From: Bolinopsis microptera
Taxonomy: Eukaryota > Ctenophora > Tentaculata > Lobata > Bolinopsidae
DNA: 64,000 nt
Reading direction: 5' to 3'
Assembly: GCF_026151205.1 (NCBI RefSeq)
Contig: NC_087081.1
Span: forward strand, 10,107,113 to 10,171,112
The translations under genes were made by a program, and so were the position numbers. Under the pieces are notes generated by a model. That model was not told the origin of the DNA and ran no database searches. It worked only from the letters and a program-made list of their open reading frames with translations. Every line of letters begins with the position of its first letter. The first letter of the stretch is position 1. This document shows, piece after piece, positions 37,683-64,000 of the stretch.

Positions 37683-38232
37683 ATTCATTACGGTACCGCG
37701 ACAATTGACCCCCCGACAATTGACCCCCCGACAATTGACCCCCTATGTAATTACACTGGGGTCAATTGTCGCGAAATCTAAGGTTTAGTACGACAATTGA
37801 CCCTCCGACAATTGACCCCCCGACAATTGACCCTCCGACAATTGACCCCCCGACAATTGACCCCCTATGTAGTTACACTGGGGTCAATTGTCGCGAAATC
37901 TAGGGCTTAGTACGACAATTGACCCCCCGACAATTGACCCCCCGACAATTGACCCCCCATGTAATTAAACTAGGGTCAATCGATCGGGTTAGGGTTAGGG
38001 TTAGGGTTAGGGTTAGGGTTAGGGTTAGGGTCCTGGGTCAGGGTCAGGGTCAGGGTCAGGGTCAGGGTCAGGGTCAGGGTCAGGGTCAGGGTCAGGGTCA
38101 GGGTCAGGGTCAGGGTCAGGGTCGGGGTCAGGGTCAATTGTCGGGGGTCAATTGTCGGGGGTCAATTGTCGGGGGGTTAATTGTCGGGGGGTCAATTGTC
38201 GGGGGGTCAATTGTCGCCCACCCATTCATTAC
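37683..38232. mobile_element. Mutator-like MITE with TTAGGG/GGGTCA core, copy 1
   Basis: The element (37692-38223, 532 bp) is bounded by a perfect 9-bp duplication ATTCATTAC (37683-37691 and 38224-38232), the length most typical of Mutator-like elements. Its terminal core GCGACAATTGACC is inverted at the other end. Inside are multiple 14-15 bp repeats of CGACAATTGACCCCC, seven tandem TTAGGG hexamers (37986-38030), then about 14 GGGTCA hexamers, then the terminal repeats in reverse orientation. There is no ORF of its own. Confidence 0.88.
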
Positions 38233-59418: not shown

Positions 59419-59498
59419 CTGAGACAAAACCACAGTCAGCATGATACATAATAAGCCACTAATTATCCAATTATCCAATTACCTAATAACTTACTCAC

Positions 59499-59642
59499 AC
59501 AGAAGACGAGTAATATTCTTATGAGGACGTAGGGAAGCGCCTCAGTCATGGCCATGTCCCCCAGCCCGACTGTGCTCAATGTTATTGTGTAGAAGTAAAA
59601 ACATTGGACCAAGCTGTCCGTTGAGTCGGTTGCTGTCATGAT
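59499..59642 (-). CDS. K2P channel gene, second pore-domain exon (E)
   Basis: The acceptor GATTTTTCAG and donor TTCTGT|GTGAGTAAG bound 144 nt (48 codons, phase 0 at both ends). The encoded segment is the second pore loop of a two-pore K+ channel: helix D-S-L-V-Q-C-F-Y-F-Y-T-I-T-L, selectivity filter S-T-V-G-L-G-D, then the start of TM4 (L-P-Y-V-L-I-R-I-L-L-V-F-C). Leu replaces the aromatic of the filter, as is usual in K2P second pores (G-F/L-G-D). In the assembled channel two subunits, each giving two pore loops, make one K+-selective leak pore in the plasma membrane. Confidence 0.88.
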
Positions 59643-60095
59643 CTGAAAAATCACAAGTGATGTTTTTTTAAAAAGAGAGGCTGGGCCTGGTTGGCTCACG
59701 AGAGGATAGCATATGGATGCTTTGCATACCTCTGGGGTATGGCAGTCCTGTGGGAGGATGCCAGTGGAATCAAGATGTGTAATCAAGGATGATGGTAAGT
59801 AAAATGATGTTTTTGTACGCTTTTAAAATGCCTTAAAGTACGCTAAGATACTCAAAAATAAAATGTGGAAGTGGCGCAAAATTTGAAAATTTATAATGCA
59901 TTATAGGTATACGTTGCCAAATACAAATTCAGAATTTTTTAAGAATTAAACATTATGGCTGAAAGAAAACATCAGCTAAATTTGTATCTTTACATAGAAG
60001 CAGGCGAACCAGTGAAATATATAACTAAAATGAATTGAACCAAATAAATGATCAATAGAAAATGTAAAATTAGTAAAAGTAGAAGTTAAACCCAC

Positions 60096-61442: not shown

Positions 61443-61576
61443 CTGCAAAAATATCAAGATTATATACCTCAAAATTTTACACCTCGCCGTCATGTTCAAT
61501 TCATTTGGACCTGGGTAAAACAAATTTAAGACAAAAAATTAATTATAAATGTTTTATTAAAATACTAAACCTTTAC

Positions 61577-61678
61577 TGAAAAGTGCTAGGTACATTGCCA
61601 TACGAGGTATTCCAACAGAGGAGTACGCCACAGTAAAGAGTCTCCCGGCACTGGTTCTTGGCGACATGTTTCCATACC
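61577..61678 (-). CDS. K2P channel gene, filter-to-TM2 exon (B)
   Basis: The acceptor CTAAATTTCCAG and donor TTCA|GTAAAG bound 102 nt. Joined to exon A it completes the first selectivity filter T-T-I-G-Y-G-N, with the intron splitting the Gly codon after its first base. It continues M-S-P-R-T-S-A-G-R-L-F-T-V-A-Y-S-S-V-G-I-P, the hallmark K2P segment (P-x-T-x-x-G-+-x-F-x-x-x-Y-x-x-x-G-I-P) leading into TM2. Codon and motif agreement is excellent. Expected role: background K+ conductance. Confidence 0.92.
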
Positions 61679-61980
61679 CTGGAAATTTAGATTCCAAGCA
61701 TTTCTAAATTATTCAAAATTGAATGGTTCGTGATGCCAACAGAAATCATGTACAATCAATATCATGCATTACGGCCATTAGTGACACAATACAGCAGCAT
61801 TTGTTATTCAGCAAAATATTTCCGCCTAGGAGGAATTAACAAAATAGGTAATATCCATTATCAGGGAGGGTGCAGTGGAGAATAACTTAATGGTTGGTAG
61901 CATCATTGGTTTAGAACTTTAAAGAAACGTTACAAAGTCCGAAAAACATGAAAACCTCAATACATTCGGTAGAAAGTAGA

Positions 61981-62258
61981 GTGCCACATACCAATAGTGG
62001 TTAGTAGGGTGGCACATACCAATAGTGGTTAGTAGGGTGGCACATACCAATAGTGGTTAGTAGGGTGGCACATACCAATAGCGGTTAGTAGGGTGGCACA
62101 TACCAAGTGGTTGGTAGGGTGGCACATACCAATAGTGGTTAGTAGGGTGGCACATACCAATAGTGGTTAGTAGGGTGGCACATACCAATAGTGGTTAGTA
62201 GGGTGGCACATACCAATAGTGGTTAGTAGGGTGGCACATACCAATAGTGGTTAGTAGG
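61981..62258 (-). repeat. 28-bp minisatellite copied from the end of K2P exon A and its donor
   Basis: Ten units (nine of 28 bp and one of 26 bp). Read on the minus strand, each contains the last ~24 nt of exon A (CCCTACTAACCACTATTG) directly followed by the splice donor GTATGTGCCA. The exon-proximal unit (62231-62258) is shared with the real exon end at 62242. The ninth and tenth units outward carry small variants (GTGCC for GTGGC; AGCGG). Confidence 0.93.
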
Positions 62259-62382
62259 GTGGCACAAAAGTCAAGGGACGACCAGAAATTCCACAAGTTG
62301 TTCTCAGTATGACGGTTGTTGATCTGATGGCATCTCGGTCTGTGGAGGTCCGCTAGAGCTCTCCAGTAACTTTCGTTCATAC
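62242..62382 (-). CDS. K2P channel gene, cap and first pore-helix exon (A)
   Basis: The acceptor CTCTGTCCCTCTATCAG precedes 141 nt; the donor is ATTG|GTATGT. After two leading nucleotides the frame encodes a polar extracellular segment, M-N-E-S-Y-W-R-A-L-A-D-L, then N-L-W-N-F-W-S-S-L-D-F-C-A-T-L-L-T-T-I-G, the first pore helix and start of the selectivity filter of a K2P channel. It joins exon B in frame to give TTIGYGN. The preceding exon (TM1, start codon) must end in phase 1 and is not found between here and the window end. Confidence 0.9.
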
Positions 62383-62793: not shown

Positions 62794-63385
62794 TGTGTTG
62801 TACCAGTAATACTGTTTGTATTTAAATATGCGATCAAATTCAACCAATCCTAACAGAGAAGTTGGTTGTTCAACAAAATAAACCCATAACTTCAATTTAG
62901 TGGATAGTCACACCCCCTTATCATCTTCAATCGCTTGATGAAATATAAACAGTATAGGTGTATAAATATGAGTTATACTGTTAGTATTAAGGATATGTGT
63001 TATACCAGTAATACTGTTTGTATTTAAATATGCGATCAAATTCAACCAATCCTAACAGAGAAGTTGGTTGTTCAACAAAATAAACCCATAACTTCAATTT
63101 AGTGGATATTCACACCCCCTTATCATCTTCAATCGCTTGATGAAATATAAACAGTATAGGTGTATAAATATGAGTTATACTGTTAGTATTAAGGATATGT
63201 GTTATACCAGTAATACTGTTTGTATTTAAATATGCGATCAAATTGCACCAATCCTAACAGAGAAGTTGGTTGTTCAACAAAATAAACCCATAACTTCAAT
63301 TTAGTGGATAGTCACACCCCCTTATCATCTTCAATCGTTCGATGAAATATAAACAGTATAGGTGTATAACTATGAGTTATACTGT
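62794..63385 (+). repeat. Tandem array of ~205-bp repeat, three copies
   Basis: Units start with TACCAGTAATACTGTTTGTA near 62797, 63003 and 63206 and are over 95% alike by eye. Each holds AGAAGTTGGTTGTTCAACAA and CAGTATAGGTGTATAA. Related single copies occur at 41950-42125 and, more diverged, 60670-60970. Confidence 0.92.
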
Positions 63386-64000
63386 TAGTATTTACGATCG
63401 CGCGATAATGTTTCAACAAGCCGGATAATGATGATTGTTCCAAAAATATAGATTAATACTTACTTCAATCTGATTCTAAACTCAAATCAATAAATGAAAT
63501 TGCGCAGGTTCCTCAACATTCATAAACGGTTATAAAGAAGAGATGAAATAGAGTCGAAATAATATTTCAATGTTGCCATGAGGTGTCCAGTGTCAAATCC
63601 TATTCATCACAACCCACTAGTTTACTGCCACTTAATATAATATAAGTTTATAACGATGCGATAAAGTCCCTCCACTCTTCATGCTCACTTAACTCAATTT
63701 AATAAATGAAATTGTTCAGATTCCTCAACAATTTACATCGGACAGTCAATCATAAATGGTTATGATGAAGCGATGAAATAGAGTCGATATAATATTTCAA
63801 TATTTTCATGTCGCATCCATCACAACCCACCAGTTTCACTGATTCTTAATATAGTGAGGTGATGAAGTTCCTTCACTTTTTATGCTGAATGGACCAACAA
63901 AAAAAATCCCAACTTTTCTTTGGTTTAAAATAGTCACAGGTACACTCATTCTTATTAACTTAATGAACTTATTAACTTAATGAACTTATTCATTCTTGAA
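63386..64000. repeat. Diverged ~230-bp direct repeat to the window end
   Basis: Two loose copies, about 63480-63620 and 63695-63850, share CTCAATTTAATAAATGAAATTG-, AGAGTCGATATAATATTTCAAT- and CACAACCCACCAGTTT-type words. A similar segment is at 20690-20780 (TTGCCATGAGGTGGCAAGTC). No gene is seen. Confidence 0.6.

Follow-up and report, generated by a model that had tools for sequence, protein, structure and literature searches.

The K2P channel gene and its paralogs

The window analysed here is a stretch of 64,000 nt from the genome of the ctenophore Bolinopsis microptera (C10:10107113-10171112; the genome comprises 264.65 Mb in 232 contigs, and the large contigs C1-C12 measure 15-26 Mb each). 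Near its end lies a two-pore potassium channel (K2P) gene, gene A, which like all its splice donors is placed on the minus strand of the window (Table 1). Exon A codes for NESYWRALADLHRPRCHQINNRHTENNLWNFWSSLDFCATLLTTI and contributes the first base of a glycine codon, its protein ending in FCATLLTTIG. Exon B was placed by the acceptor TTTCCAG/GGTATGG at 61678 (here and below, a slash marks the splice site). Spliced in silico, the two exons yield TTIGYGNMSPRTSAGRLFTVAYSSVGIPRMAMYLALFSK, where the TxGYG filter of pore 1 is present as TTIGYG once donor 1 is used. The joined exons match Pfam Ion_trans_2 with an E-value of 1.9e-17, which bears out the earlier note's identification of a K2P pore-1 exon.

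Downstream in the same gene and on the same strand, a second pore domain with the motif TVGLGD scored 27.2 bits in the genome scan, above the cut-off; the joined piece of TM3 and pore 2 reaches 19.7 bits, below the cut-off of 22.5. Segments corresponding to TM2, TM3 and TM4 were recognised by eye in the translations. A TM1 exon was not found when ORFs upstream of exon A in paralogs C and D (described below) were compared with gene A (11.5 kb) and gene B (1.5 kb). Upstream of exon A, at 62794-63392, the window also holds three copies, 97% identical, of a 202-bp unit. A repeat adjoining the pore-2 segment (59674-59800) has a 97.6% identical copy in paralog B, inverted and more distant; it is probably a mobile element.

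Table 1 Features of K2P gene A, in window coordinates.
Feature	Position	Strand	Description	Basis
K2P exon A	62242..62382	-	141 nt, coding for pore helix 1 and TTIG; phase-1 intron on each side	translation, tblastn, Pfam with exon B
Donor 1, exon-proximal GT	62240..62241	-	sole donor restoring TTIGYG	in-silico splicing
Intron A/B	61679..62241	-	563 bp measured from donor 1	
Complete intronic units, nine in number (28 bp in eight, 26 bp in one), with the ten donors bounding them	61991..62241	-		
Decayed last unit GTATGTGGCACTCTACT, downstream array edge	61975..61991	-	identical in paralog B	
K2P exon B	61571..61678	-	(G)YGNMSPRTSAGRLFTVAYSSVGIPRMAMYLALFSK	
Probable TM3 coding segment	59985..60182	-	66 aa, gapless alignment to paralog B	
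K2P pore-2 coding segment (...TVGLGD...)	59466..59666	-	67 aa, gapless alignment to paralog B	

Three paralogs lie on the same contig. Paralog B (C10:8940090) is found 1.2 Mb from gene A on the opposite strand and is 93-96% identical to it, with BLAST pieces of 96% over 1.5 kb (extending downstream from the array) and 94% over 1.0 kb (extending upstream from it). Paralogs C (C10:6566176) and D (C10:10196879) are more distant, exon A being 60% and 58% identical, respectively. Both have a phase-1 intron at the same position.

A minisatellite made of exon-end copies

From the last bases of exon A into the intron, TRF delimits an array at 61975-62266 with a period of 28, 10.5 copies, 96% matches and a score of 542. 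Its unit consists of GTA followed by TGTGCCACCCTACTAACCACTATTG, and TGTGCCACCCTACTAACCACTATTG is the final 25 nt of exon A. As GTA are the only intron-derived bases of the unit, positions +4 to +6 of each array donor (TGT) copy a Cys codon of the exon. The motif TTG/GTATGT occurs ten times, counting the exon's own donor at 62241, with successive spacings of 28, 28, 28, 28, 26, 28, 28, 28 and 28 bp. The earlier note was right that the array copies the exon end and offers a potential donor in every unit. Its ten tandem 28-bp units come down to nine complete ones, one of them of 26 bp, plus a decayed partial tenth, and the repeated segment, given there as the last ~24 nt plus the donor, is indeed an exon-end copy but takes 25 nt from the exon and only GTA from the intron.

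We searched the whole window for an 18-mer core, allowing up to 3 mismatches, and repeated the search in 100 dinucleotide shuffles. Against 0.03 expected, nine matches were found, all inside the array, the last of them in the end of the exon itself; none of the 100 shuffles reached nine and the maximum in any of them was one. Chance is therefore ruled out, and the array is confirmed as real. TRF arrays scoring 80 or more, with a period of 10 or longer and 3 or more copies, make up 8.5% of the window. The region is rich in minisatellites, and the array is a real and neat feature that is ordinary in kind. Elsewhere in the window, at 37699-38216, lies an inverted pair of minisatellites, in which CGACAATTGACCCCC arrays are followed by arrays of the reverse complement GGGTCAATTGTCGGG. 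The open-access literature that we searched does not name the K2P array, and Bolinopsis combined with tandem repeats returned nothing, which does not by itself prove its absence there.

Gene B has the same array with both edges as in gene A; its donors are spaced by 28 throughout, and four of its units carry a C-to-G variant. The array thus predates the A/B duplication. Its length changed afterwards, since the two paralogs of this one genome carry 10 and 11 donors, respectively; both genes nevertheless kept open frames over the 215 codons compared. In C and D the intron is present and the array absent, so the array is younger than both the intron and the split from C and D.

GTATGT is kept in all donors of both genes (10/10 in A, 11/11 in B). 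We dropped selection on the donors as an explanation: few units differ anywhere, and homogenisation suffices. A role for RNA structure was likewise considered. The strand carrying exon A and the array folds with a z-score of -2.61 (1 of 100 shuffles folds equally well), and neighbouring donors can pair, as UGGUAUGUGCCA is self-complementary when G-U pairs are allowed; the two-donor hairpin has -13.0 kcal/mol. With two of the C-to-G units of gene B this hairpin is replaced by a weaker fold (-7.7), the donors of B remaining paired otherwise. In a version collapsed to one donor, the mean unpaired value of the donor is 0.16, versus 0.17 for donor 1 in the full array. The idea that the array hides donors by RNA structure was dropped, the single-donor version being equally paired.

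Outcome of each donor

For every donor we modelled in silico the junction with the 61678 acceptor and followed the reading frame. In gene A, only donor 1 is productive (1/10). The extra 28 nt gained through donor 2 throw exon B out of frame, so that translation would stop where that exon ends. From donors 3-10 a TAA is read in the second unit, directly after MCHPTNHYWYVPPY; it stems from the exon-end CTACTAACC in an out-of-frame reading. Donors 4, 6 and 9 add multiples of 3 (+84, +138 and +222), yet meet the same in-frame TAA. This overturns the expectation that the frame would be safe with three added units (84 bp) or with the 26-bp unit included. Gene B behaves alike: one of its 11 donors is productive, the first one, and the in-frame donors 4, 7 and 10 also meet TAA. 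Any distal donor is predicted to give a truncated product.

Exon-end arrays elsewhere in the genome

We ran a TRF check at the match edges of 75 K-channel domain hits in 70 distinct places, a non-random sample examined in two sets (54 loci, and 20 loci with 21 hits); the test does not see an array whose exon end lies outside the match, and long open frames contain many of the hits. Arrays copying an exon end were found at 3 of the 70 places, namely A, B and exon B of paralog D, which amounts to two independent events. In D the array sits where exon B ends and has a period of ~49 (L065 2371-2734, C10:10193371-10193734). It counts 8 copies of the putative donor ACAG/GTTGGTA and 7 copies of TTCAGTAAAGGGATTTACAG, the exon's own included. 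Its units are copies of the exon end but for a 5-nt difference, and the frame continued from the exon reaches a TAA.

Two other arrays touch a match. The one in paralog C lies, by our reading, inside the intron after exon B, the match overrunning the donor. The other, a 62-bp x 5 array (L075 559-866, C1:21995924-21996231), abuts a Kv-type pore exon at its start; the adjoining IPHYSWW codons may be coding, so that the array may extend into the exon. Three more arrays lie 17-48 bases beyond the matches, at L085, L087 and L093; we read the last as in-frame coding repeats, and inspection of the arrays at L085 and L087 gave no sign of donor copying. Places on C11, C6 and C9 that resemble the K2P array were set aside: the three inspected are unrelated minisatellites, 65-70% identical.

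Tandem repetition of another kind is seen at the photoprotein loci. The genome (G000) contains 55 matches to aequorin-like photoproteins, L068 and L069 among them, with loci at C5:17.012-17.026 Mb, C13:11.08-11.09 Mb, C1:22.00 Mb and C3:3.415-3.427 Mb. Many of these matches form near-regular tandem gene arrays with steps of ~939-1030 bp and open single frames. For one such ORF the PDB matches below E 1e-20 are berovin (4mn0) and mnemiopsin (5vp3) only, both ctenophore photoproteins, in line with the ctenophore source of the DNA.

Discussion

We now propose that the array is most probably a junction-spanning minisatellite, tolerated as an intron passenger in two K2P genes whose first donor would be the one used. 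A 28-bp segment across the junction of exon A and its intron (25 exonic and 3 intronic nt) would have been tandemly duplicated, and would have expanded by slippage or unequal exchange in the ancestor of A and B. Because the TTIGYG filter, and with it the channel, comes from donor 1 alone, the spliceosome presumably takes this exon-proximal donor; use of a distal one would lead to a truncated and probably decayed mRNA.

The array appears much like the known repeat of human factor VII (F7), for which Borensztajn et al. (2006) is reportedly the primary paper. According to a review (PMC6627357), IVS7 of human F7 carries variable, highly similar 37-bp repeats, with the real donor within the first repeat and similar sites in the downstream ones; normal splicing there relies on the most upstream donor alone. 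In both cases the first repeat holds the real exon end and donor, and the further repeats copy both. However, the gene and the animal differ, the unit has 37 bp there and 28 bp here, and 25 of the 28 nt of the K2P unit are exonic; moreover, the K2P array is common to two paralogs and was examined at the level of DNA. PMC2423196, on tandem donors lying close together, refers to the F7 paper; the passages of PMC3778950 that were consulted make no mention of the F7 repeats.

A second likeness comes from human recent paralogs with internal tandem repeats at exon-intron boundaries (Genome Biol 2009, PMC2812944). The minisatellites described there have units averaging ~30 bp and share the boundary location with ours, and their number is not the same from one recent paralog to another. 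Unlike the human transcripts with altered intron boundaries reported there, the distal K2P donors are predicted to yield no intact protein, and the K2P array gives no indication of a new intron. As in intron gain by tandem duplication, a duplication across an intron/exon boundary has copied splice signals; here, in contrast, the intron predates the array and AG is not copied (gene A). Since C and D have that very intron without the array, and AG is uncopied, the array forms no new intron.

For duplicated donors in mammals, a preference for the upstream copy and one for the downstream copy have both been reported, so the choice of donor does not follow from position alone. The frame outcomes, for their part, predict use of the most upstream donor only. 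Working in the manner of F7 is the most likely mode for the K2P genes, provided that the F7-type donor rule extends to ctenophores.

Other readings give the extra donors a function or deny one to the whole gene. The earlier note suggested that distal donors might produce pore-loop protein isoforms, for which donors 4, 6 and 9 of gene A, adding multiples of 3, would be the candidates. We regard this as extremely improbable: each of them runs into a TAA in frame within the second unit, as do their counterparts in gene B, and every other distal donor ends in a stop or a frameshift, so that the sequence contradicts such isoforms unless the TAA is read through. Alternatively, the distal donors could act as decoys through which some transcripts acquire stops, the number of units setting the output of functional K2P in the way of an alternative-splicing/NMD rheostat. 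It would fit that the nine extra donors all keep the 9-mer TTG/GTATGT and all lead to an early stop or frameshift, and that the array of gene A lacks AG and therefore contains no competing acceptor. Yet homogenisation of the array by itself predicts identical donors, the number of units has drifted between A and B, and for the repeats of human F7 only first-donor use is reported (PMC6627357); we find the decoy reading unlikely. A broader version treats exon-end copies as in-cis decoy donors whose number determines what fraction of the channel transcripts is productive. It would build on at least two origins within a single K2P subfamily (at exon A in A/B and at exon B in D), possibly as recurrent tuning of channel dose; we hold it to be very unlikely.

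Genes A and B could also be decaying duplicates and the array pseudogene noise. Over the 215 codons compared there are 2 synonymous changes at 146 sites and 9 non-synonymous changes at 499 sites, giving a dN of 0.018 and a dS of 0.014 from few changes. As dN is not below dS, purifying selection is not evident and constraint may be relaxed in one copy or in both; the TM1 exon that was not located points the same way. Against this, both frames are open across all the compared coding segments, the splice signals of the exon A/B junction are intact, and coding sequence has diverged less (11/645 bases) than the intron past the array (10/312 aligned bases, with a further 7 gap columns). Decay of the genes thus appears quite unlikely to us.

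With the passenger minisatellite as the preferred reading, the locus offers a natural test of the rule, reported in a review for the human F7 repeats, that splicing takes the first 5' splice site it can accept, as its ten donors share the same nine-base site and differ mainly by position. The pattern of stops makes for a clean readout, in which donor 1 would give a channel and all others a truncated product. The lineage concerned is possibly among the earliest-branching animals. Otherwise, the array would be a good example of the tolerance of minisatellites that span exon edges.
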